A stretch of DNA of 64,000 nucleotides from positions 68,616 through 132,615 of the forward strand of contig JACPQY010000071.1 of NCBI GenBank assembly GCA_016190245.1, written 5' to 3'. This document shows, one piece after another, positions 19,666 through 32,093 of the stretch. The notes under the pieces were generated by a model. The model searched no databases. It was not told the DNA's origin and saw only the letters and a program-made list of their open reading frames with translations. Positions within the stretch are counted from its first letter, which is position 1. Each line of letters opens with the position of its first letter. The stretch comes from Nitrospirota bacterium (lineage in GTDB: Bacteria; JACPQY01). The translations under genes were made by a program, and so were the position numbers.

Positions 19666-20361
19666 TCAGCGCAGGGAGGCAAGCCCCGAGCTCTCCCGAC
19701 TCCCCTGGAGTAGCCCGCCATGACCGCCCTTCATCTCTTCCGCAGGCGGTGAGGCCGGCGCTTCGATGGCGGAGGTCTCGAACACAAGAAAGGCCACGGC
19801 AAAGTCCGCCAACTCTCCTTGGGGGTCGTGGAAACCGGCCGGCCCGAGCCACCGGGCCGTCACGTGGATCGCCACGAGGCCCGGTTCGCGGAACCAGCCC
19901 GGCTCGACCTCGGCGAACCCGCCATGACTTTCCAAGCCCTCGGCGAAACCTACGAATTTCTCCCCCGCGTACCGGCGCAGGCGCCTTCGTTCGATGTCCG
20001 GCCGGAACGGCACCCCGCGCGTCTCGCTGATTTCCTCCCGCGTGTATCCCTCGGGTGCTCGATTCAAGTACATCCCCTCGATCAGGCGAAGGATGGGCTC
20101 CCGGGCCTCGGTCACCTCGGGCGGCACCGCAGTGAACGGCTCGGCGTGGACCAGGTAGGGATCCCCCATGAATTGAACCAGCAACCGCTCCTCGCCCAGC
20201 ATCAACACGACGTCGTTCGGGGGAATCGGGATCACGAAAGGGCGGGGCTTCGCGGTTTCGGCGGGCCGGGGGCAGAGGGCGACGCAACCCGCGAGGAGAC
20301 AGGCCACAAGGGAGGCGAACAAAAGGCGGCGCGCGGTGAGCCGCACTGCTTTCCTGTTCAC
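19666..20361 (-). CDS. Lipoprotein at end of the type IV secretion block
   Basis: The 231-residue protein starts at a GTG preceded by GGAGGA. Residues 1-26 form a lipoprotein signal peptide (basic start, LLFASLVACLLAGC lipobox), so the mature protein is probably anchored in the outer membrane. The mature region has a Pro-rich start (VIPIPPNDVVLML) and a mixed alpha/beta pattern with no motif I recognise. It is the last gene after TraV, 31 bases downstream on the same strand, which suggests a role with the TraB/TraK/TraV core. Confidence 0.7.
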   Translation of the reverse strand: MNRKAVRLTARRLLFASLVACLLAGCVALCPRPAETAKPRPFVIPIPPNDVVLMLGEERLLVQFMGDPYLVHAEPFTAVPPEVTEAREPILRLIEGMYLNRAPEGYTREEISETRGVPFRPDIERRRLRRYAGEKFVGFAEGLESHGGFAEVEPGWFREPGLVAIHVTARWLGPAGFHDPQGELADFAVAFLVFETSAIEAPASPPAEEMKGGHGGLLQGSRESSGLASLR

Positions 20362-20392
20362 TCTCCTCCCCTCGCCCTTTGCCCTTTCCCGT

Positions 20393-20848
20393 TCACTTTC
20401 CCTCCGGCGGCTTGGACTCGGGATGCAGGGGCAGGAGCGTTTCGACTGCGGAGGGTTGTGCGTCTCCGGGCATCAGCTCGATCTCCGGGTTCCAGTCCCA
20501 GTCGCGGACGACCACGGTGAGCCAGTGGCCGTGCACGAAGATGCGGCGGTCTATCCGGTGGGAGGGGATCCATACGAGGATCGTTCGCGGGGGCATCATG
20601 ATCGGCACGACCGGTTCTTCGTAGCCGAGCGGCTGCTGCACCTCGAAATTCTCCTTCAGAGGCTCGACCACCTCCTTCGCGCCCTCTCCCAAGGCCTCCG
20701 CGTAGATCTGAGCCGTGGACTTACCCTTCATCGGGCCGCCGCAGGCCGGGAGCGAGAACAAGGAACAGAGAACGGTGAACAGCAAGGCGGGGAGCCGGGG
20801 AACCAGGGAGCCTGAGAGCCGGACGATGGCGTGCCGAAACCCGCTCAT
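20393..20848 (-). CDS. traV: TraV-like outer-membrane lipoprotein of an F-type secretion core
   Basis: The 151-residue protein has a signal peptide ending in the lipobox SLPAC (Cys at 36). The C-terminal half has PPRTILVWIPSHRID followed by FVHGHWLTVVVRDWDWN, which resembles the TraV pattern of an aromatic-rich WIAP-type strand then a YV.V..W strand. TraV lipoproteins (VirB7 counterparts) join TraK and TraB into the outer-membrane core complex. Its ATG overlaps the TraK stop by four bases and TraB lies one gene further upstream, which supports the call. Similarity is judged by eye from motifs, so family membership is probable rather than proven. Confidence 0.7.
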   Translation of the reverse strand: MSGFRHAIVRLSGSLVPRLPALLFTVLCSLFSLPACGGPMKGKSTAQIYAEALGEGAKEVVEPLKENFEVQQPLGYEEPVVPIMMPPRTILVWIPSHRIDRRIFVHGHWLTVVVRDWDWNPEIELMPGDAQPSAVETLLPLHPESKPPEGK

Positions 20849-21825
20849 GGAGAGGTCTTCCTACCCGAGGTGTTTCCGGCGGCGCCGCGGTCGTCCCAGA
20901 GGCCGGTCCGCGAACCACCCGTGAAGGCCGCACGGTTCACCACGACGTACGCTTTCGTGCGCTTGGGGTAACCCTTGAACGCCTCCACCGAGTCGGCCGG
21001 TTCGTGCGGCGCGAGGCGCTGATCCGTGATCGTCGCGCCCCGCAGGCCCTTCACGCGGAGCTGCTGGGGATCGAGCCGAATCGCCTCGTTCGAGACGTTC
21101 TCCACGTCCACCACAAGCCCCAGCATCTCGACCCCTTCGTAGACCCTGGCCAGTCGCCACTGGGTGAGTTTGACCTCCTCGAGGAACAGCTCCCCCCCCG
21201 CGTCATGGATCTGGTAGCCGGGGACCGGCTTCTCCTCCGTCATCGCCACGATGAGCCGGATCACCTGCGGCGTGGGACCGACATACATAGGGCCGGGGGC
21301 CTCCTCCGGAGCGGCCACGCTGATCTCCACGCTGTCATCCTGACGGTCCGGTGGCTCCACCTGCTGGATCTCGAAGACATACGTCCGACCGGCCTCGTCC
21401 TTCCCATAGAGGTTCATTGTGGGGAGGGGCTGGCGGGGATAGAGGTATGCGCGCTCCTCCACCTCTTGGACCGTCATCGCCTCTTCACTGGGGTGGGTGA
21501 GGTAGACGAGGGGTGCCGGGAAAACGATCTCGGTCAACTGGCCGAGAGCCGTCTTGATGATGATCACCTGCTTGCCGCCGGGGAGCCAAGGCACGGCTCG
21601 GATCGCCCAAGCCTCGGAGCCGCCGAGAACGGCGGCCACAAGGGCGCTGAGCAGAAAAACAGTGAACCGTGAGCGGAGATTGGGTTTCAGCAAGCGATCA
21701 CCCCCACTCGCACCCTCCCCCGTCGAGGGGGAGGGGAAAAGAGGGCGAGGCGCGCTCTTTCTTGTCCCTTCCCCCCTTGAGGGGGAAGGTGAGGATGGGG
21801 GGTGCTGAACGGTTGCGTGTTTCAT
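20845..21825 (-). CDS. traK: TraK-like secretin-type protein of an F-type secretion core
   Basis: TraK (VirB9 counterpart) forms the periplasmic/outer-membrane ring of F-type conjugation systems. Mature features are WLPGGKQVIIIKTALGQLTE at the start, then beta-rich repeats and a C-terminal DVENVSNEAIRLDPQQLRVK strand typical of VirB9-like folds. The ATG at 21825 overlaps the TraB stop (ATGA), but the first 45 codons are a translated palindromic repeat (PPSSPSPSRGEGT, FPSPSTGEGAS). A genuine signal peptide (FTVFLLSALVAAVLGGSEAWA) begins only after it. A TTG at 21693 would give a normal 282-residue precursor. The repeat therefore seems to have inserted between the coupled start and the secretion signal. 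Confidence 0.75.
   Translation of the reverse strand: MKHATVQHPPSSPSPSRGEGTRKSAPRPLFPSPSTGEGASGGDRLLKPNLRSRFTVFLLSALVAAVLGGSEAWAIRAVPWLPGGKQVIIIKTALGQLTEIVFPAPLVYLTHPSEEAMTVQEVEERAYLYPRQPLPTMNLYGKDEAGRTYVFEIQQVEPPDRQDDSVEISVAAPEEAPGPMYVGPTPQVIRLIVAMTEEKPVPGYQIHDAGGELFLEEVKLTQWRLARVYEGVEMLGLVVDVENVSNEAIRLDPQQLRVKGLRGATITDQRLAPHEPADSVEAFKGYPKRTKAYVVVNRAAFTGGSRTGLWDDRGAAGNTSGRKTSP
21698..21803. repeat. Double-hairpin palindromic element at the 5' end of traK
   Basis: Two strong stems lie at 21713-21735 (CCCTCCCC/GGGGAGGG) and 21767-21789 (CCTTCCCCC/GGGGGAAGG), enclosed by CACCCCC and GGGGGTG ends. It resembles the element at 24295-24365 in the same block (CCTCACCC...GGGTGAGG ends, two C-rich/G-rich stems). 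It occupies DNA that is open in the traK frame. Confidence 0.7.
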
Positions 21826-23048
21826 TGAACCTCCTCTCGAAACAGATTGGCGATTTCCGGAATATCAATCCCTTCCTCGGTCACCAGCGTCCCATCAATC
21901 CCACCGGGGATGTCCACCGTGGGCAGGAGCCGGGCGGCTTCCTCGCGCATGAACTTCGCGATGTCCGCCATGGCCTGGGACAGGGCGGAGGTCGAGGCAT
22001 GTGTGAGAGCATCCCCCGTGACGATTTGCCTTTCCGTACCGTCCGCCGCCACCACCCGCGTCACTTCCTGCACCGAAAAGGCCTGGCCCAGCCCCGCCGC
22101 AAAGCCCGCGATGAAACTTGCGCCCAGCCTCCGGCCGCGGCGGTCGGTCACCTTGCCCGCGATCCCCAGACCGCCGTCAGGCCCGGTGACGAACGCCGTG
22201 AGCTCCCGGTCCAACGTCCGGCCGCCCGGGAAGACGCAACTGAACAGCCGCGCCGTGATCCTGACCCTCTCGGAAGAAAGATCTCCATCGGCCCTTCCGA
22301 GAACGGTGCAACCCTTCATCGGGATCGAGTAGGCGTTGGGGGAGACCCAGTTGTCCATCACGACCATCGCAACCGGGAATGTGGTACTCCCGCTCGTGCC
22401 GGAGGGATACGCCGAGACCCCGTTGAGCGTGCGCACGCGCACGAGGCTGCCGGGGGGCAGGTAGTAGGGAGACGCGACCACCCCCCGTGTACCCCGCCCC
22501 GCTTCCGCCCTGGGCTTTTCCTGCTTCTTGGGCACCACGATCTTGGGCGGAGGCAGGGGTTCCACTTCCGCCTTCTTGGCCCCCGCCATGCCTCCCCCCG
22601 CCCGAATCGCGTCGAGCTGGTCCTGGACGTTCTTGCCGACCGCTTGAACCGACAAACGCAGTTCTTCCAGCTTGGTTGCCGTCCCCCCGCGCTCCTCCTG
22701 TTCCTCCTTACGGGCGTTCTCCATCTCCGCGCGCCAGAGGCGCAACTCCCTCTGCCCCTGCTTGAGTTCCTCAAGTTCCATGTTGATCCGTTGACGCACC
22801 ACCGACTCGTCCACGTGCCCGAAATCGATCGCACCCCCGCGGGGCCTGGCCTGGGGAACCATCTCGCCCATCGGACGGGATGTGCCGGCCTGTCGCATGG
22901 GGGTGAAGCCGGCCTCTTCATCTTCGCTTCTCAGGACGACCCAGCCGATCCCCACCATGAGCACGACCGCGCCGACGCCCAGCGCCATGTAGGCCTTTCG
23001 CCCTTCGAGCCCGTACCGCTCCAGCCAAGCCTTCAATCGTTCACCCAC
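21822..23048 (-). CDS. traB: TraB-like inner-membrane/core protein (VirB10 family)
   Basis: TraB spans the envelope in F-type systems, linking the inner membrane to the TraK/TraV outer ring. The 408-residue protein starts at a GTG with GGAGGTG upstream. It has a cytoplasmic tail, one membrane helix (about 22-40), a coiled-coil linker (about 80-150), a Pro-rich stretch and a VirB10-type barrel domain. In the barrel, LPPGSLVRVRTLNGVSAYPSG, GDLSSERVRITARLFSC, GGRTLDRELTAFV and RRGRRLGASFIAGFAAGLGQ align well with the F TraB motifs (DVSSER, SC, GK.LG..W.AGF..G). This is the clearest type IV secretion marker in the window. Confidence 0.88.
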   Translation of the reverse strand: MGERLKAWLERYGLEGRKAYMALGVGAVVLMVGIGWVVLRSEDEEAGFTPMRQAGTSRPMGEMVPQARPRGGAIDFGHVDESVVRQRINMELEELKQGQRELRLWRAEMENARKEEQEERGGTATKLEELRLSVQAVGKNVQDQLDAIRAGGGMAGAKKAEVEPLPPPKIVVPKKQEKPRAEAGRGTRGVVASPYYLPPGSLVRVRTLNGVSAYPSGTSGSTTFPVAMVVMDNWVSPNAYSIPMKGCTVLGRADGDLSSERVRITARLFSCVFPGGRTLDRELTAFVTGPDGGLGIAGKVTDRRGRRLGASFIAGFAAGLGQAFSVQEVTRVVAADGTERQIVTGDALTHASTSALSQAMADIAKFMREEAARLLPTVDIPGGIDGTLVTEEGIDIPEIANLFREEVQ

Positions 23049-23087
23049 TGCGCTTCACCTCCATTCCACCCTGACTCCTCTTTCCCA

Positions 23088-24260
23088 TCACCATCCCAGT
23101 GCCTCGCGGACCTTCGCCCCCACCGGCAAGAGCACCTTCCACACGAGCAATGCCGCCAGGGCGCCGCCCAGCACGATCGTGATTCCCGCCTCGACGTACA
23201 GGTAGCGGTTGTGCATGCCGAGGTACGGGCCCAGGTGCGTGCCCGTTCGGAACACCGATTCCTGGATGATGTGCAAGAGGTCCGAATCCGAGAAGGCCGC
23301 CGGGGGGTGGGCTGCTGCGTAGCGATCGACGAGATGCAAGACATAGAGCGGGAAGACGGCCAACTGGAAGAGCCACAGTGCGGCCAGGGAATACAGCACG
23401 TTCGTCACGCCACCGGGCAGGAAGACCAGCATGAAATGGAGGGGAACCGCATAGATCCAAACCTTGACGAGCCAGCCCATGACCGTGCCCCAGAATTCCG
23501 CGTCGGCAACCCGCAAGCACCATTCGCAGAGACCGGTTTCGGGTGGGGCCGCCTGCACCGAGGCCGCGGCCGTGGTCACCCCGTCAGAGGCCCGTTGCGA
23601 TGCGACCTCGTAGAGCGCCCGCCGGCCGGCGAAAAAAACGGCGTTGTTGGACTGCGTTCCCTTCCAGGCGTCAAGATCCGCCTGGGCGGCCAGATACAGG
23701 CTGAGACAGGTCTTCATCTCCGTGCCCACAGGCGCATGGGCGGCGGCGAGTGCGATGGCGGCCTGGCCCCAGTCTCCGTTCCGGATGGCTGTCTTGACCG
23801 TGGTGGGAAAACATTCGTAGCGGAGGAAGGTGTCGAGCGATTCCTCCGTGTCGAAATCCAGGCGGGCCGAAGTGTCCAGATCCGCCGAGCGACGGAACGG
23901 AAGGACCTGCGCGGAATCGTAGAACCCAGTGACCGCGGCATCGTCCACAAGTTTGATGATCCCGTGCGAAACCGAATTCGTGAATTTCACCGCACCCGAG
24001 ATGAGAAGCGATGCACGATCCTTGCTCTCCGTGCCCGGCTGTGGCGCGACCAGCGCCAGCGCAAGGAGCCCCACGAGGAGGTGGCTCAAGGCGCGGGACC
24101 ACCCCGCCGTGCCGAAACTCAGAGCCAGCCGAACGAGGAGCGTCGCCGCGCCCGCCCCGGCAATAAGCGGCGCCCAGGGCTGCATCTGCGTCAGCACCGT
24201 GCCGACCTCGATGAGACCATCGCTCACCAAGTCCGCTTCCGTGGCAGTCAGGTGGAACAT
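23088..24260 (-). CDS. Multi-spanning membrane protein of the secretion block (TraG-N/VirB6-like)
   Basis: The 390-residue protein has two N-terminal membrane helices (WAPLIAGAGAATLLVRLAL, LLVGLLALALVAP), a large periplasmic segment of about 170 residues with paired Cys, then at least three helices near the C-terminus (FWGTVMGWLVKVWIYAVPL, YSLAALWLFQLAVFPLYVL, YVEAGITIVLGGALAALL). Such topology and its place between TraU-like and TraB genes recall the TraG N-terminal or VirB6 inner-membrane channel proteins, but I see no diagnostic motif. Its C-terminus is 40 bases from traB. Confidence 0.6.
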   Translation of the reverse strand: MFHLTATEADLVSDGLIEVGTVLTQMQPWAPLIAGAGAATLLVRLALSFGTAGWSRALSHLLVGLLALALVAPQPGTESKDRASLLISGAVKFTNSVSHGIIKLVDDAAVTGFYDSAQVLPFRRSADLDTSARLDFDTEESLDTFLRYECFPTTVKTAIRNGDWGQAAIALAAAHAPVGTEMKTCLSLYLAAQADLDAWKGTQSNNAVFFAGRRALYEVASQRASDGVTTAAASVQAAPPETGLCEWCLRVADAEFWGTVMGWLVKVWIYAVPLHFMLVFLPGGVTNVLYSLAALWLFQLAVFPLYVLHLVDRYAAAHPPAAFSDSDLLHIIQESVFRTGTHLGPYLGMHNRYLYVEAGITIVLGGALAALLVWKVLLPVGAKVREALGW

Positions 24261-24294
24261 CTTGCCGTATCCGTTCAGCGCCCTCGATATGAAT

Positions 24295-24365
24295 CCTCAC
24301 CCTTTCCCTCTCCTTTCCAAGGAGAGGGGACTCCCTCTCCCTGAAAGGGAGAGGGAGGGGTGAGG
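24295..24365. repeat. Double-hairpin palindromic element
   Basis: The element starts CCTCACCC and ends GGGTGAGG, with two inner stems: CCCTCTCC/GGAGAGGG and CCCTCTCCCT/AGGGAGAGGG. It lies in the gap between the membrane-protein gene and the preceding secreted-protein gene and is related in design to the copy at 21698-21803. Transcribed, it would form two adjacent hairpins that could set relative expression along the operon. Confidence 0.75.
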
Positions 24366-24399
24366 GTTTTCCCAATGGGCCTCAACGCATACATCTTGC

Positions 24400-25518
24400 C
24401 TACCTCCGATCGCCCCAGTGGGACACGAGGCTCGCGAGCACGAACCGCCCGAAATCGCTCTCCTCGCGTGCGATCTGTTCGTCGAGCTTGCGAAAGTATT
24501 CCGCGTCGCCCAGCCGGATCCGAATCCGTTCCCGCAGGTCTTCGAGCTGCTCGATCAGCGCCTCTTTCTCGCGCGGCGGCACGCCGATCTGCGAGGCCGC
24601 GGAACTCAGGAGAGCCGCCGCAAGGCGAGCTTCCTGGTGCCAAGCCAGGGTGGCCAGCGCCTTTTTGTACCCCGCACATTCGGTCGTCTTCGGGTAGGCC
24701 TTGGCGTAATGCTCGGGCTCGATTTGGAAGGCCAAGCTGCTCAGGTCGGTGTCCGTCCACGTAATCTGAGTGGGGATGGTGGACTTGTCACAATCCACGC
24801 CCAGCGCAAGCTCGATGACCGAAGTCTGGAGAGATGAAATGCGCGTGGCTGATTCCGGCGGATCGACCCGCTCGAAGCCCCAAGACGTGTACTTCATGTC
24901 CCGCGCGTAGCCGCGCACGAGCGCCGGCCCGCCCTGGTCGAAGTACTTGTCGATCAGGAAAACATCCTTGTCCCAGGCGGGGGAGTAGTCGGAAACGAAC
25001 TTGGCTTGATCCGTCTTCAGCTCGTTGAGGCAGTCTTGGCGGCCGTTGGGCGAATTGGCGTTCTGGTGAATACATTGTTGCAACGCCGTGTAGACGTCCG
25101 GGTCAACCGACATCCACACCGTGTCGCCGCCGCCGTAGAGGCTCTGACTCTGGGCCTGGTAGTCGCGCTGGAACATCTCCGTGGCGTCCACCAAGGCGCT
25201 GGCGGCCGCCTGCTCTCCTTTGTGAGCGCCGTAGAGGCTGTTGTACGTCTGGGTTAGGGCGACTTGGTTCAAGAGCTGGGACAGACGCGAGTCCGCGTTC
25301 GTCGCGTAGTCGGTGAGAGTCAGAGCCACCATGACTTTGAACGGGCTGTCGGCGGCTGGGGCCTTGACCCAGCCGCTCGGGACCTCCACCGGCGGCAATC
25401 TGTCCAAGATGGACGGCATTTCGACTTGGGATTGCGCCATGGATGCCATGAGCACGACGGCCGGCATCGCCAACCCCAGCCACCGGCTATTCCACACTCG
25501 TACCCGCCGTGTTCGCAT
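24400..25518 (-). CDS. Secreted protein of the secretion block, family unknown
   Basis: From the ATG at 25518 the protein has 372 residues with a Sec signal peptide (MRTRRVRVWNSRW, hydrophobic core, cleavage near MAQSQ). The mature part is helical and Gln/Ala-rich (TYNSLYGAHKGEQAAASALV), has conserved-looking Cys (QQCIHQN, RQDCLNE, GVDCDK, ECAGYKK) and a C-terminal coiled coil (EKEALIEQLEDLRERIRIRL). Upstream alternative starts exist because the frame is open to 25650. In integrative elements a protein of similar size lies between TraU and TraG, so a periplasmic assembly role is inferred from position only. Confidence 0.6.
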   Translation of the reverse strand: MRTRRVRVWNSRWLGLAMPAVVLMASMAQSQVEMPSILDRLPPVEVPSGWVKAPAADSPFKVMVALTLTDYATNADSRLSQLLNQVALTQTYNSLYGAHKGEQAAASALVDATEMFQRDYQAQSQSLYGGGDTVWMSVDPDVYTALQQCIHQNANSPNGRQDCLNELKTDQAKFVSDYSPAWDKDVFLIDKYFDQGGPALVRGYARDMKYTSWGFERVDPPESATRISSLQTSVIELALGVDCDKSTIPTQITWTDTDLSSLAFQIEPEHYAKAYPKTTECAGYKKALATLAWHQEARLAAALLSSAASQIGVPPREKEALIEQLEDLRERIRIRLGDAEYFRKLDEQIAREESDFGRFVLASLVSHWGDRR

Positions 25519-25586
25519 CGCGCGATCCGTGAACACCCCTTGCTTGCCGTCTTGCCGCTCACTGTTCACTGCTTGCTTTGTCGGCT

Positions 25587-28500
25587 TCACCGACACTCCT
25601 CCGGCGGCGGCTCGCCGCGCCCCTCCGCGAGGCGGCGCTGCAGCTCGCACCGTGACTTGATGAACTCGGGATCGTTGCGGGTGTCTTTCTTCAGGCTCTC
25701 GCGCAACCGCCGTGTCGGCGAATCCAATTCGTCGTCCTGGATCTCCCGCTGCGTCAGCCCCGTCGCCGGATGGGGCTTGTCGAGATCCTTGCTCTCGAAC
25801 GGGCGGACCGAGTCCCGGCTGCGTTTGAACTCCCCCGCCGCTGCGTCCTCGATGTTTTGATCCGTTTCGCCCTCCTTCCGGGACGGGTTCAGCGTCTCCC
25901 GAACCGCCCGGCCGAACGCCTCTTCCTGCGACATCCCCGCATAGGCGCCCGAGGCAATCTTCCGCGCCGCCGCCAGCATCAGGTTGGGTTGACTCTGAAG
26001 CTTGGCAAACATGCCGATGGAAGCGATCACGCGGGCGAGGGTGATCTCGTTGGGATCGTCGTCCTGCACACCCTTCCCGCCGAACAATCCATCCGTCTGC
26101 TTGGCCATTTCCCCTCCGCCCGGGCCCCCCAGGACGCCGAGCGACTGCGCCAACTCCATAAGCCGGTCGAACAGGTCGGCCAGCTTCGTCCCGAGATCTT
26201 CGATCTGCCCGGCCACCGTGTTCAGGGGACTCCGGAGCGGCGCCATCACGGGGCCGAGCGAGGCCGAGGTCAGCGTGACCTGTGGCAGCGATTCAAGTTG
26301 CGTCGCCAGCTTCCCCGCCGCACGGCCGAACTCGATGGCGGGCGCGTGGCCTTTCGCCCCAAGCGTGCGCCCCTCGGACTCCACCGCGCGCAGGTCGGCC
26401 GCAATCGTCGCAATCTGCGCCGTGGGCAGGATCTGGAACGACGACTCGATCTGCCGCGCGTAGGCGTCGGGAATGTCCCGAATGTGGTCGGCCAAGTCCT
26501 TGGCTAGGGGTTGAAGGTTGTTCCGGATGCGGTCCACGGCCTGCTGGACGCGCGTTTCGAGGCTCGCCGAGTTGGCGGCCAGTTCGTCCGAGAAGGCTTG
26601 GAGCTCGGACGAGAATGTGGCGAGCGCAATGATCCCCTCGAACACCTCCTCCTTGCCCGCGGAGTCCAGGTTTGCCATCAACTTGAAAAACCGCTTGGCC
26701 GAGCGCATGACGCCCTTGCCGCTCGACTGGAGCTGGTTCAACTCCTTGTCCGGGAAGCCCACATCTTTCAACTGATCGACGAACTGCTTGAGTTCCGTCT
26801 CCACGTGCTTGCCCAGATCGGTCAGGAAATCCGCGCTCCCCATCCGGGCCACCGCCTTGCGGACATCGCCCACGTGGGAGAAATTGAGGGCGCGGAGATC
26901 TTGCTGAAGCTTCTCCACGGCCCGAGCAAAAGCCTGCGCGTCCGATGCGGGCAGGGTCGTCTGCTCGCGGGCGGAGCGGAGCATCGTCTCGAGGTCGCGC
27001 GTGTGGCGCAGGGTCTCGATCGTGCCCAGAACGTCCTGCACCCGCTTGAGGTCGGGATGGTTGGGCGTGGGAACTTGCACGAACGCGCCCGCCAGATCGG
27101 AGAAGTTGCGAGGCGGGTTCTTGATGAGCTTGACGCCCGTGCAGGCGAGGTCGAGTCCCGCCCTGACGTCGGCCAGGAGTTGGGCCTTCTGGTGTATGTA
27201 GGCCACGGAGGGCAATTGGGGCTTGGATGGCGTGCCCTTGCCGTGGTGGATCTCTCGAATAGTGGAATGGACGGCCTCCTTGCCGCACGCGTCGGGCAGC
27301 GCACTCCTGAGCGGCTCATCCTCCAAGAAGCTCTTGACCTCGTTGCGCGCCTGAGTCATGGCGCTGACCGTGCCCGCGATCGCCTTCACATCCGAGAGCC
27401 CCTTCCCGCAGGCCTCGAACGACCCGAGCGTCGCGATCGTATCGAGCGCCTTGTAGCCCGTGTCCAGCGCGCACTCGGCGGTGTACACGTACCCCGCCGC
27501 CTCGGGAATCTCCAGGGCTATGGCCACAGCCTGAATCGCCCCGTTCACAAGCGCGCCGCTGAACTGGTCCTTCGCCAAGGTCATCGCCTCTGACAACGCT
27601 TCCTGAAGCTCCTGGATGGTCTTGGCCAACGCCTTGATGCGCTCGACCAGATTGAAGATCTGACGGACGGCGGTCTGGATCTTCTCGATGAAGTCGAGCA
27701 CATCCTGGGCAATGTCGGCCACCTGCTTCGCCCGGAGCGCGGCCTCCGTGGCGCCACCCGAAAAAACCGACCCCGCTAGTGCAATCCCCTCCTCCAAGCC
27801 CCGGGCGACGATATCCACCGTGGCTTGCATGGTTTCCCCTGCGAGGCAGTCCTTCTGCTCCTTCCAGATGAGGAACGCAAAATGGTCCGTGCCGGCGGGC
27901 GCCTGGGGCTCGTCTTTCCAGTCGGTCGGCCGCCACCCGATGAGCCTGGGACGACCCCACCTCTCCGGGTAGACCATCTGGATGGCCAAGTTGCGGGTGA
28001 ACTGAACGTCGCCGGGCTTGGAGAGCGCGAAGGAATAGGGCGGGCGGTTCTCCCAAGCCTTCGACAGCTCTTGCTTGTGCGCGGCAATCTGATCATCAGT
28101 TGGTGCAAGCATTTCAGCGGCTTTCTGTAGGATGGAATCCAGATCGATCGCCTTGACCTCGTGATCGGCCAGATCTAGGAGATCCTCGTCGGCGTCCTCG
28201 CCGAGCTGCTCGAGCTGCTCGTCGGTCATCCCAAATCCCCCCTGCGGAGGCTGCGTCGAAAGAATCGCCTTCAATCGGTCCCCCGCCGTTGTCCCCGGAA
28301 CGGCATCGAAAGCGAAGATGTCCTCGGCATCACTCCCACGGCACAAGCTCCCCAGCCCCCCGCGCGTGGCATAGAAAGCCGCGCGCAACGCGGCGATCTC
28401 GGCCGCCACGATGGGATTGGAGTGGACCACGTGGCCCGAGATCGCATTCATCGGCCCGATCGACAGCCACTGGTCCCGCAAGGGAGCGTCTTTCTCGGCT

Positions 28501-29300
28501 TCCCCCGACTTGAGCCCCTCCCAGATCCGATAGGTCTTCGCCAACTCCTCCTCCGTCGGTGGCCAAGGGACTCCGAACCGCCACCGCAAGGGATCGAGCT
28601 CCGAAAAATAGCACGGCTTGACCTTCACCTCCGCCATCATCGCCGTGGCCCACTGCTCCGGATGGGCGGCATTCTCGAAAATGGGGTCATAGGGGTTGAA
28701 CTCGAACTGGAAAACGTGGGCCTCGTAGTAGCTGCCGCGGCGGCTCGGCCCGCCCTCGGCCCCGGCCATGCGCTTCAACACCTCGCGCCGGAGGTTGGCG
28801 GGCACAACCTCCTCGTTCCGGGTGGCGGCATCGAAGAGGGGCACAATGAGCCATTCGTCCATCTTCTTGAAGAGGCATCCGACGAACTGATCGACAAAGG
28901 GCAGGAGGGCCGACTGCCCTTGCCGGGGCACCAGTTCCACAAAGTAGACAGGGCGCTGGATGTAAATCTTGGGGAAGACGAGCTTGCAACTGCCACCATC
29001 ACGCCTCAGCCGGGCCTCGAAACCCCTACCGGCCGGGTCAAATGCCGCCTTGAGCTCCGCCTCGAGAGCCCCACGCAGGGTCCCGATCAGGATGGCCGCG
29101 AACTCCCCGATGTCCTGCGGGTTGGGCCATGACAGCGAGCACCCCTCGTATTCCGCCGTCGTATCCTTGAGCGGGTTGGGCGGCTTGCGGGGCGGACCGG
29201 GCCCCCCGGCAATCGCGCCTGCGGTTTCCGGCGACGCCGCCAGAGAGACCAAGACGGCTATCGCGGCGAGCCAATTGCTCCCGCGCGCCTGAACACCCAT
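25587..29300 (-). CDS. Giant TraU-like secreted protein with long coiled-coil extension
   Basis: The 1237-residue protein starts with an ATGA overlap with the preceding lipoprotein gene. A signal peptide (LAAIAVLVSLAASPETAGA) is followed by a region (about 50-340) that recalls TraU: GCSLSWPNPQDIGEF, FPKIYIQRPVYFVELVP, KPCYFSELDPLRWR, then HSNPIVAAEIAALRAAF and GSLCRGSD, matching the TraU pattern of a SELDP box followed by an NP.A box and Cys. TraU is a periplasmic protein needed for DNA transfer. The remaining 900 residues are not part of TraU: long Ala/Leu/Gln helices and coiled coils (for example VERIKALAKTIQELQEALSE). The TraU match is by eye and moderate; the extension has no family I recognise. 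Confidence 0.65.
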   Translation of the reverse strand: MGVQARGSNWLAAIAVLVSLAASPETAGAIAGGPGPPRKPPNPLKDTTAEYEGCSLSWPNPQDIGEFAAILIGTLRGALEAELKAAFDPAGRGFEARLRRDGGSCKLVFPKIYIQRPVYFVELVPRQGQSALLPFVDQFVGCLFKKMDEWLIVPLFDAATRNEEVVPANLRREVLKRMAGAEGGPSRRGSYYEAHVFQFEFNPYDPIFENAAHPEQWATAMMAEVKVKPCYFSELDPLRWRFGVPWPPTEEELAKTYRIWEGLKSGEAEKDAPLRDQWLSIGPMNAISGHVVHSNPIVAAEIAALRAAFYATRGGLGSLCRGSDAEDIFAFDAVPGTTAGDRLKAILSTQPPQGGFGMTDEQLEQLGEDADEDLLDLADHEVKAIDLDSILQKAAEMLAPTDDQIAAHKQELSKAWENRPPYSFALSKPGDVQFTRNLAIQMVYPERWGRPRLIGWRPTDWKDEPQAPAGTDHFAFLIWKEQKDCLAGETMQATVDIVARGLEEGIALAGSVFSGGATEAALRAKQVADIAQDVLDFIEKIQTAVRQIFNLVERIKALAKTIQELQEALSEAMTLAKDQFSGALVNGAIQAVAIALEIPEAAGYVYTAECALDTGYKALDTIATLGSFEACGKGLSDVKAIAGTVSAMTQARNEVKSFLEDEPLRSALPDACGKEAVHSTIREIHHGKGTPSKPQLPSVAYIHQKAQLLADVRAGLDLACTGVKLIKNPPRNFSDLAGAFVQVPTPNHPDLKRVQDVLGTIETLRHTRDLETMLRSAREQTTLPASDAQAFARAVEKLQQDLRALNFSHVGDVRKAVARMGSADFLTDLGKHVETELKQFVDQLKDVGFPDKELNQLQSSGKGVMRSAKRFFKLMANLDSAGKEEVFEGIIALATFSSELQAFSDELAANSASLETRVQQAVDRIRNNLQPLAKDLADHIRDIPDAYARQIESSFQILPTAQIATIAADLRAVESEGRTLGAKGHAPAIEFGRAAGKLATQLESLPQVTLTSASLGPVMAPLRSPLNTVAGQIEDLGTKLADLFDRLMELAQSLGVLGGPGGGEMAKQTDGLFGGKGVQDDDPNEITLARVIASIGMFAKLQSQPNLMLAAARKIASGAYAGMSQEEAFGRAVRETLNPSRKEGETDQNIEDAAAGEFKRSRDSVRPFESKDLDKPHPATGLTQREIQDDELDSPTRRLRESLKKDTRNDPEFIKSRCELQRRLAEGRGEPPPEECR

Positions 29301-29914
29301 CAGAGGTCAACCTCCTCGAACTCGCCCGCACACTGGAACGAGCCTTCGATGGTTTTCACCTCGCCAATGTCACCGGCCTTTTCGGGCGTGCAGCTCGATG
29401 TGCATGTGCACTGAAACGTGCCCGACCGCTCGTCTTGGCCAATCGTCAGACTGCACTGCAGCGATGTCTCGAACGCACGCATGCCTAGTGCCCAATTGGC
29501 GCCTCCCGGGTATGTGCCTGGTCCGGCGTACTCATAAGGTGTCAACAAGATTACCCCCAGGAGACCGCGCTGAGATCCATCACTCGCGTAGAACCCGTAG
29601 CTTTTCGCCGTTATGCCTGAGTCGAGCTCACAAGCCCCTCCTGCCTCGAGTCCTCGGTCCCCCGGCGCTCGAAAATGGTTCTTGTCATACCGAAACACCT
29701 TCCCCTTGACGTCGGCCGCCCCGTCCGTCACCGTGATCGTGACCGAGCCGCCGTAGGCAACCTTCCTAGTCGGCTTCCTGTTCGATCCACCATCCTGAAC
29801 CGCGGAATCGCCCTTGTCGTCCCCGCCACAGCCCGCCAGGCTGCCGGTTAGTAGCAAGACCGTGAGCAGCCAGACGGTGATGCGGGACGAGAAATGGATC
29901 AGGACAATGTTCAT
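29300..29914 (-). CDS. Small lipoprotein B of a related pair
   Basis: The 204-residue lipoprotein has lipobox SLAGC followed by GGDD, where Asp after Cys+2 does not act as an inner-membrane signal, so outer-membrane location is likely. AGGAGG precedes the ATG by seven bases. The mature domain is beta-rich (VAYGGSVTITVTDGAADVKGKV) with several Cys near the end (QCTCTSSCTPEKAGD, SFQCAGEF). Its signal peptide is nearly the same as that of the gene upstream (HxSSRxTVWLLT..LLTGxLAGCGGDD) although the mature parts differ. It overlaps the TraU-like start. Confidence 0.7.
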   Translation of the reverse strand: MNIVLIHFSSRITVWLLTVLLLTGSLAGCGGDDKGDSAVQDGGSNRKPTRKVAYGGSVTITVTDGAADVKGKVFRYDKNHFRAPGDRGLEAGGACELDSGITAKSYGFYASDGSQRGLLGVILLTPYEYAGPGTYPGGANWALGMRAFETSLQCSLTIGQDERSGTFQCTCTSSCTPEKAGDIGEVKTIEGSFQCAGEFEEVDL

Positions 29915-29935
29915 GCTATGCCTCCTGTTCTCTCT

Positions 29936-30442
29936 CTAGAATTCCACGTCGCATTCGCGCGAGACCTTGCGCGTCAAAGCCTGCTCCTTCGTGGATGCCT
30001 CCTTGCATGGCTCACTCAGGCTCTTCAGCTCCGAGAGCATGATGATCTCTTCCGGATCTTCCTCCACATACCTGCACAGCGAGGACGACTCCCTCGCCTC
30101 CAAGTCGGCGGCACACGTTTCCAAGGCCGCCCGGTATTCCTTCGTATCCGGCCAGTCGGTGTAGTCGCTTTCGCACGAGTCGCCGAGGGTGGAGGCGACA
30201 TCCTCTGAAACCGAGTCCACATACGAGGTACAGGCTCCGACACGATCCGAATCAAATTCGTCCTCGAAAAAATCCTTTTCGCACGCCAGCAGCGCCCGAC
30301 AGGACACCTCATTGAATCGCCTCTCCCCAGCCGAAATTGATGCATCGTCGCCCCCGCAGCCCGCCAGTCCGCCGGTGAGCAGCACGGCCGTCAGCAGCCA
30401 GACGGTGAGGCGGGATGAGTGATACGTGATGCGAACGTTCAT
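29936..30442 (-). CDS. Small lipoprotein A of a related pair
   Basis: The 168-residue lipoprotein starts at the ATG 30442 with GAGGAGG upstream. Its signal peptide ends in GGLAGC and is followed by GGDD. The mature part is acidic and Cys-rich (SCRALLACEKDF, VGACTSYV, DSCESDY, ETCAADL, SLCRYVEE, EPCKEAS, RECDVEF), suggesting a disulfide-bonded periplasmic domain. It is the first gene of the apparent secretion operon. I recognise no family. Confidence 0.7.
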   Translation of the reverse strand: MNVRITYHSSRLTVWLLTAVLLTGGLAGCGGDDASISAGERRFNEVSCRALLACEKDFFEDEFDSDRVGACTSYVDSVSEDVASTLGDSCESDYTDWPDTKEYRAALETCAADLEARESSSLCRYVEEDPEEIIMLSELKSLSEPCKEASTKEQALTRKVSRECDVEF

Positions 30443-30469: not shown

Positions 30470-30497
30470 ACCATAACATCACTTATGCCTATGTCCA
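30470..30497 (-). promoter_or_regulatory. Possible promoter for the lipoprotein/secretion operon
   Basis: On the minus strand TGGACA (30492-30497) and TATGGT (30470-30475) are separated by 16 bases, 28 bases before the first lipoprotein start codon. Both boxes are imperfect, so this is a candidate only. Confidence 0.35.
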
Positions 30498-31016: not shown

Positions 31017-31303
31017 TCGCGCGCGGAGCGGTGCATCGTCTCGAAGTCGCGCGTACCGCTCGAAACTTCGCCTCACCTTCCTGGTCCGCCGCGGCAGACT
31101 GGCTCGGCCAGTACTCGCAGTACTGGGCCTTCCTGGCCGTGTTCCGCAGCGTCTCGATCGTGCCCAGAACGTCCTGCACCCGCTTGAGGTCGGGATGGTT
31201 GGGCGTGGGAACTTGCACGAACGCGCCGGCCAGATCGGCGAAGTTGCGAGGCGGGTTCTTGATGAGCTTGACCCCCGTGCAGGCGAGGTCGAGCGCGTCG
31301 CCG
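31017..31303 (-). pseudogene. Duplicated fragment of the TraU-like gene, interrupted by an insertion
   Basis: Bases 31139-31303 are almost identical to 27001-27164 inside the giant gene (encoding GVKLIKNPPRNF, VPTPNHPDLKRVQDVLGTIE), and 31017-31054 match 26965-27002. Between these two blocks the copy has about 85 extra bases containing a perfect 8-bp hairpin (CCAGTACT/AGTACTGG, 31108-31126). There is no start, signal peptide or further homology, so this is a dead duplicate. It marks the upstream edge of the secretion block. Confidence 0.75.
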
Positions 31304-31695: not shown

Positions 31696-31716
31696 TTTTG
31701 CGGCACCCCCTCCGCA

Positions 31717-31911
31717 CCCCTTGCCAAGGACGGGATGGGGCCATGCAATGCCGTGCTTGATCGCGGGCCATCCTGGCCTGCTTTCTTCTCACGGCACCAG
31801 GACTCCTTGCCCATGTGTCGCAGCGCCAAGGATGGCGCAGCATGGACCATGGCCTTCCCCCGCCACGCCCCGTGCATGGTCCCGAACCGTGTTCGGGACT
31901 GCATACGGGGC
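31717..31911. repeat. Palindrome-rich element including interspersed repeat copy 2
   Basis: 31717-31745 is the second copy of the 29-base repeat seen at 4754-4782. A long imperfect hairpin at 31867-31911 pairs GCCCCGT..GGTCCCGAAC with GTTCGGGACT..ACGGGGC. The rest, to 32093, holds no gene I can support; antisense frames across it lack ribosome sites and family motifs. Confidence 0.55.
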
Positions 31912-32093
31912 ATGGGGGGAGGGTTGGCTGGGGGCGAAATGCCCCGCCACGTAAGAGGGAGATTCAGTAAGTTCCAGCCGAGCCCCAGTTGACTGTGGGC
32001 AGAAAACTGGGATAATCGGCGCCGCGTTGCTTGGCCGCAGGGGGGTGGTATGGGCCCCCCGCCCCGGGCGGGTCGTCCCGGCAAATCACCACA

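Follow-up and report, generated by a model that had tools for sequence, protein, structure and literature searches.

A mosaic duplicate of an F-type-derived trans-envelope gene cluster between mraZ and yceD in a Nitrospirota genome

Analysis of a 64,000-nucleotide stretch of a Nitrospirota bacterium (assembly GCA_016190245.1, contig JACPQY010000071.1, here C63:68616-132615; referred to as the window, its right edge being the contig end) showed a block of nine minus-strand genes at 19666-30442 that includes homologues of the F-type conjugation proteins TraB, TraK, TraV and TraU. The block is a resident mosaic duplicate of an F-type-derived system in a deeply isolated lineage and not a lone relic. 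A paralogous cluster carrying the only TraC/VirB4 ATPase gene found in the genome is located on another contig (C79) of the draft assembly (3.29 Mb, 86 contigs, 84.77% complete). The fuller explanation, which we hold to be about evenly balanced, is that the block duplicates, as a mosaic specific to this lineage, a chromosomal trans-envelope machine; it would use the C79 ATPase in trans and would not be conjugative. A first-pass annotation of the window had described the block as an orphan, which is correct for the contig, where the block has no TraC, but not for the genome.

All nine open reading frames (ORFs) are intact and overlap by a few bases or are separated by gaps of at most about 140 bp, a layout like that of one transcription unit and in agreement with the tight minus-strand arrangement reported earlier. 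For family assignment, small family alignments (most with 3-4 sequences) were compared by hhalign with 19 reference tra families drawn from plasmid F, four other plasmids and contig C20 of a sister-genus genome, G001. The TraU-like, TraB, TraK and TraV families each ranked their own tra family first, with the next unrelated family at about 3% or less. The TraB/VirB10 homologue (21822..23048, minus strand, as are all block genes) matched Pfam TrbI (3e-19) and NCBIfam TraB (9e-21), its profile matched the F-type TraB structures 7spb and 7okn in the PDB (7e-21), and its family aligned with TraB at 99.9%. The TraK/VirB9 homologue (20845..21825) matched TraK_C at 1.4e-9 and TraK by hhalign at 86% (E 4.7e-6). 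For the TraV/VirB7-like lipoprotein (20393..20848) the hhalign match to TraV was 76% (E 2.2e-5); the window protein has no Pfam match of its own, and its C79 homologue scores above the Pfam TraV cut-off. The 1237-residue TraU-like protein (25587..29300) by itself reached Pfam TraU only at 0.018, below the cut-off. The profile of its family, which includes paralogues on C79, C29 and C31, matched TraU at 94.5% (E 7.7e-8) over 226 TraU columns, far ahead of the other families. This homology is limited to about the first 480 residues, and the remaining approximately 750 form an extension with no tra match that is probably in part coiled coil. The F-type outer-membrane core (TraB/VirB10, TraK/VirB9 and TraV/VirB7) is represented in the block, as is the F-specific TraU. 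The four family calls made from the letters alone were all confirmed, including TraB and TraK, for which a missing profile match had been named as a refutation. The TraU-like family was found in two of 386 genomes searched (this genome and G001), with two further weak matches in the extension region.

The genes of the C79 cluster lie on one strand in the order lipoprotein, TraU-like, H, TM, TraK, TraB, TraV, secretin-like lipoprotein, TraC and two small single-span proteins, where H and TM are two further families shared with the block. Here the second TraB of the genome stands near TraC, which was identified with NCBIfam TraC at 4.7e-92. The core genes are ordered B-K-V in the window versus K-B-V on C79. 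Two smaller paralogous loci were found. An isolated TraU-like gene preceded by a lipoprotein is present on C29. On C31, H is accompanied by a short TraK_C-like protein, by a lipoprotein and by a TraU-like gene of which only the beginning is present before the contig ends; no TraB or TraC was detected alongside either locus. Between the window and C79, dN (nonsynonymous divergence) was 0.42-1.01 and dS (synonymous divergence) 1.31-1.55 for six families (NG86), with dN below dS in all of them and dS near saturation.

Among 60 genomes chosen as relatives, only G001 (97% complete) belongs to the same family, as a sister genus, the others sharing only the domain. Two scans of a contig collection with short patterns from TraB alignments yielded no relative by tblastn, a negative of little weight given the pattern length. 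Contig C1 of G001 repeats the C79 order from lipoprotein through U-H-TM-K-B-V to the secretin gene, after which the contig ends, and on C65 an array of large lipoproteins is followed by a TraC that shares 75% identity with the C79 protein. In G001, about 0.3 kb separates the divergently oriented mraZ and yceD; in the window the block lies between these two genes, with mraZ on the side of the cell-division genes and yceD on that of lipid synthesis. The synteny comparison suggested in the first-pass annotation showed both a conserved C79 arrangement and an empty site. About 12.7 kb would have been inserted between mraZ and yceD, leaving in place the mraZ promoter and a promoter-like site before yceD (31989-32016). 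The empty site together with the mosaic make-up of the block argues for insertion here and not loss in G001.

This make-up is evident from conflicting affinities. In the TraB tree the window and C79 copies group together (100/100), while in the TraU tree C79 groups with G001 (100/100) and the window copy with C29 (86/89). The two TraB copies of this genome are 55% identical overall and 82-88% in most 40-column windows of the C-terminal half, a stretch in which either copy is 30-78% identical to the sister protein. For TraU, C79 and G001 share 45% identity, and the window copy is at 22-27% from all others. The window TraV-like protein is closest to the sister genus (54%), with 46% identity to C79. 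Because the affinities of TraB, TraU and TraV disagree, the block is composed of pieces with different histories. The possibility that TraB had undergone recent gene conversion was rejected, since 46 of 75 four-fold sites differ, and any homogenisation must be old. Recent foreign DNA was likewise considered as the origin of the block; its GC content is similar to that of the flanks. In the TraC tree the TraCs of both genomes, including the C20 copy of G001, form one clade apart from five plasmid TraCs (100/100).

The other five genes had been reported as lacking a recognisable family motif, and this stands as far as F tra families are concerned, except that the last gene shows a weak TraK_C signal. 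The first gene encodes a Cys-rich lipoprotein of 168 residues with the lipobox LAGC (29936..30442) and no Pfam or NCBIfam match. A lipoprotein gene before the TraU-like gene is a layout shared by C63, C79, C29 and the sister genus. The second lipoprotein, of 204 residues (29300..29914), resembles in its C-terminal part the lipoprotein upstream of the C29 TraU-like gene (40.5% over 79 residues, tblastn), and the DNA of its signal region repeats that of the preceding gene at 78%. H (24400..25518) has a signal peptide and four conserved cysteines; its listed ORF (416 residues) reaches 25650, and the true start is probably further in, near 25518. Its best hhalign probability to an F tra family was 0.4%, and PDB matches with low E-values, all to helical designed proteins, were read as composition matches. 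TM (23088..24260), an inner-membrane protein, has a hydrophobic segment at each end and carries two conserved cysteines in a loop. A TraG-like G001 protein was its best hhalign match but an insignificant one, and by layout TM may be TraG/VirB6-like. Structure models of H and TM (mean predicted local distance difference test 40 and 42) were too poor for fold comparison. The last gene (19666..20361) encodes a short lipoprotein with a TraK_C match of 0.0012, below the cut-off, and is similar to the short protein that follows H on C31. By hhalign neither it nor the other lipoproteins had a significant match among the 19 families, and no match to TraG, TraH, TraF, TraN, TraW or TrbC was obtained from the H, TM or lipoprotein families, where very divergent forms could be present.

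Profile scans of the nine block proteins detected no TraC, TraD, relaxase, TraL, TraE or pilin, and the genome-wide searches placed no TraC or TraD in the window. The earlier statement that the window lacks these components is consistent with this for the block, to which the profile scans were confined. The first-pass annotation had also called for a genome search, and besides the single TraC this yielded neither a coupling protein nor a relaxase of the families covered. For TraD, PF12696 gave no match in the draft and PF10412 only a 34-residue sub-threshold one; PF12696 does detect a TraD in the sister genome, so the profile works in this family. MOBF and MOBH profiles found no relaxase in the incomplete draft, MOBP, MOBQ and other families lying outside the search, and gave no match in G001 either. 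A full conjugation gene set directly adjacent would have spoken against an isolated core; in the preceding 40 kb of C63 no relative of any block family was found by tblastn. As no TraD, MOBF/MOBH relaxase, pilin or accessory genes were found, conjugation by the block looks unlikely, within the limits of an incomplete draft. A further F-type-like set of G001, on C20 (L042:3869-16101, L043:733-2514), combines a TraC of its own with proteins resembling TraL, TraH, TraU and TraD, the TraL-like one scoring below the cut-off; a K-B-V set is located on C25 (L030). The location of K-B-V and TraC-TraU-TraD on different contigs suggests that the separation of core from engine may be recurrent.

These data suggest a machine in which TraV, TraK and TraB would form an outer-membrane core ring, tied to the inner membrane by the N-terminal helix of TraB. 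The TraU-like protein, H, TM and the two lipoproteins would form a separate module, probably setting what the machine contacts or passes, and the lipoproteins preceding the TraU-like genes are candidate structural parts or substrates. With no ATPase gene of its own, the block could use the C79 TraC, so that the machine would exist in a second or a chimeric form. Outer-membrane core subunits of F are swappable between plasmids, while inner-membrane parts are not, and defective F plasmids that share a cell give rise to chimeric machines (PMC10939261). By analogy with this exchangeability, the window core may work with the C79 ATPase. The machine could export proteins or lipoproteins or display them, or could be a surface structure anchored in the envelope, rather than transfer DNA, as the coupling protein and relaxase were not found. 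The two options offered earlier, a core for a use other than DNA transfer and a split system with its engine elsewhere, can thus be combined: the sole TraC does lie elsewhere, in a paralogous cluster, while the non-DNA use is an inference from absences. A broader version, which we put forward tentatively, is a lineage-native non-conjugative machine made of an F-type core, TraC and a type IVb-pilus-like secretin, with exchangeable scattered TraU/H/TM/lipoprotein surface modules on a shared core and motor.

Several observations weigh against the preferred explanation, a duplicate powered from C79. The window has no second copy of the secretin-like protein or of the two small TraC-adjacent proteins. 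TraL/VirB3 and TraE/VirB8 were unrecognised among the block and C79 proteins, the genome as a whole lying outside that comparison. The roles given to H, TM and the lipoproteins are guesses from sequence, with no tra family match. Completeness of 84.8% leaves room for a missed ATPase, coupling protein or relaxase, and with dS near saturation dN<dS marks past constraint and not present use.

The block could instead be a domesticated, ATPase-independent structure in which the K-B-V ring, TraU and H with the lipoproteins make a surface or cell-contact complex and TraC is unused. The missing ATPase gene, the occurrence of C29 U and C31 H/U apart from a full machine and the lipobox or signal peptide on most block products are in line with this. 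We consider it rather unlikely, given that an inner-membrane TM protein and the N-terminal membrane segment of TraB are retained and that the C-terminal half of TraB is very close to the C79 copy, which suggests common partners. That the draft is 84.8% complete would also accommodate a conjugative or mobilisable element with its coupling protein and relaxase in the unassembled part, as would the classical conjugation proteins K-B-V and the TraD-like protein beside another TraC-TraU set in the sister genome. Such an element is improbable: TraD, MOBF and MOBH were not found here, MOBF and MOBH are also missing from the matches in the 97%-complete sister genome, no transfer genes adjoin the window or the C79 block, and the GC content is that of the surroundings.

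A decaying, non-functional remnant of a duplicated cluster is slightly more improbable still. It would fit the adjoining debris, with its partial copy of the block's own TraU-like gene, and the lack of the ATPase and secretin genes of C79, but the nine ORFs are intact, dN is below dS throughout and the block has a plausible promoter of its own. Least probable of all is a pilus-type machine, in which the F core and type IVb-pilus-like parts would assemble or retract a filament. Its basis is the secretin-like lipoprotein of C79 and the sister genome, whose best PDB profile match is BfpB (0.037), with HofQ at 1.4e-4 and PilQ at 0.009, all below cut-offs, and the two small single-span proteins after TraC, which look PilO/PilP-like by eye. 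No pilin or pilus motor was identified, the secretin match is weak, the small proteins have no PilO/PilP profile match, and none of these parts is present in the window.

Genes of 23S rRNA intervening-sequence (four-helix) proteins adjoin the secretin-like gene on C79 (L018:3142-5507) and in the sister genome (L029:10267-10854), and one of those on C79 reads in frame with the secretin ORF. The C65 array of G001 (L040:114-14821) consists of lipoproteins of about 690-930 residues directly before TraC. Four of these are paralogues with THG...NGSC motifs and a caspase/gingipain-type (clan CD) look by eye, and other proteins of the array have a vWA and NHL-repeat look, also by eye.

The bounds of the block agree with those described earlier. 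On the side of the dcw genes lies the mraZ promoter (TTGACA-17-TATACT, 19362-19334), and on the other side is pseudogene debris extending to about 32000. Inside it, on the minus strand, 31138-31293 (156 bp) duplicates a segment of the TraU-like gene, 27000-27155, at 96% identity and is of recent origin, and around it a DUF559-like fragment can be seen by eye. A candidate block promoter at 30470..30497 (minus strand), with 9 of 12 positions matching and an extended -10, is put forward from consensus match. A dispersed repeat at 31712-31837 has relatives of 72-86% identity on C79, C29, C31, C63 and in the sister genome. It lies near several of the loci described here but, with a density of about one copy per 20 kb in the stretches read, also occurs away from them, and it was set aside as a mobilisation signal.

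Nearly all that is known of F-type machines concerns the movement of plasmid and integrative-element DNA. If the preferred explanation is true, a relaxase-free F-type machine kept across two genera of this deeply isolated lineage would show how conjugation machinery can be redirected to other ends, and core-motor sharing between paralogues would become testable in nature through the duplicated cores and the variable surface modules around a single motor. In the literature, which was covered in part, no described system of this composition was found. The type IVb pilus secretins (BfpB/PilN) resemble the lipoprotein secretin-like protein of the C79 and sister clusters through the weak BfpB match, which is too weak for membership; here the gene stands in a cluster of F core and TraC and is not in the window. 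Were this partner real, the architecture would be unusual. Compared with the F-type (MPF_F) type IV secretion system (T4SS) of plasmids F and pED208, no TraD or MOBF/MOBH relaxase was found, the core locus is apart from TraC, TraU carries the extension of about 750 residues, and TraA, TraL, TraE, TraW, TrbC, TraF, TraN and TraH were unrecognised in the window and C79 clusters. The adjacent TraK, TraB and TraV core genes, the TraU homologues and the TraC of the C79 cluster are shared with it. The T4SS of the gonococcal genetic island needs TraI, TraD, TraL, TraE, TraW, TrbC, TraN, TraF and TraH (PMC4207684), none of which was recognised in the window and C79 clusters, while its pilin gene traA is dispensable for DNA secretion (PMC4207684). 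It is a parallel in being a chromosomal F-like T4SS with a use other than cell-to-cell conjugation, as we propose for the block described here.

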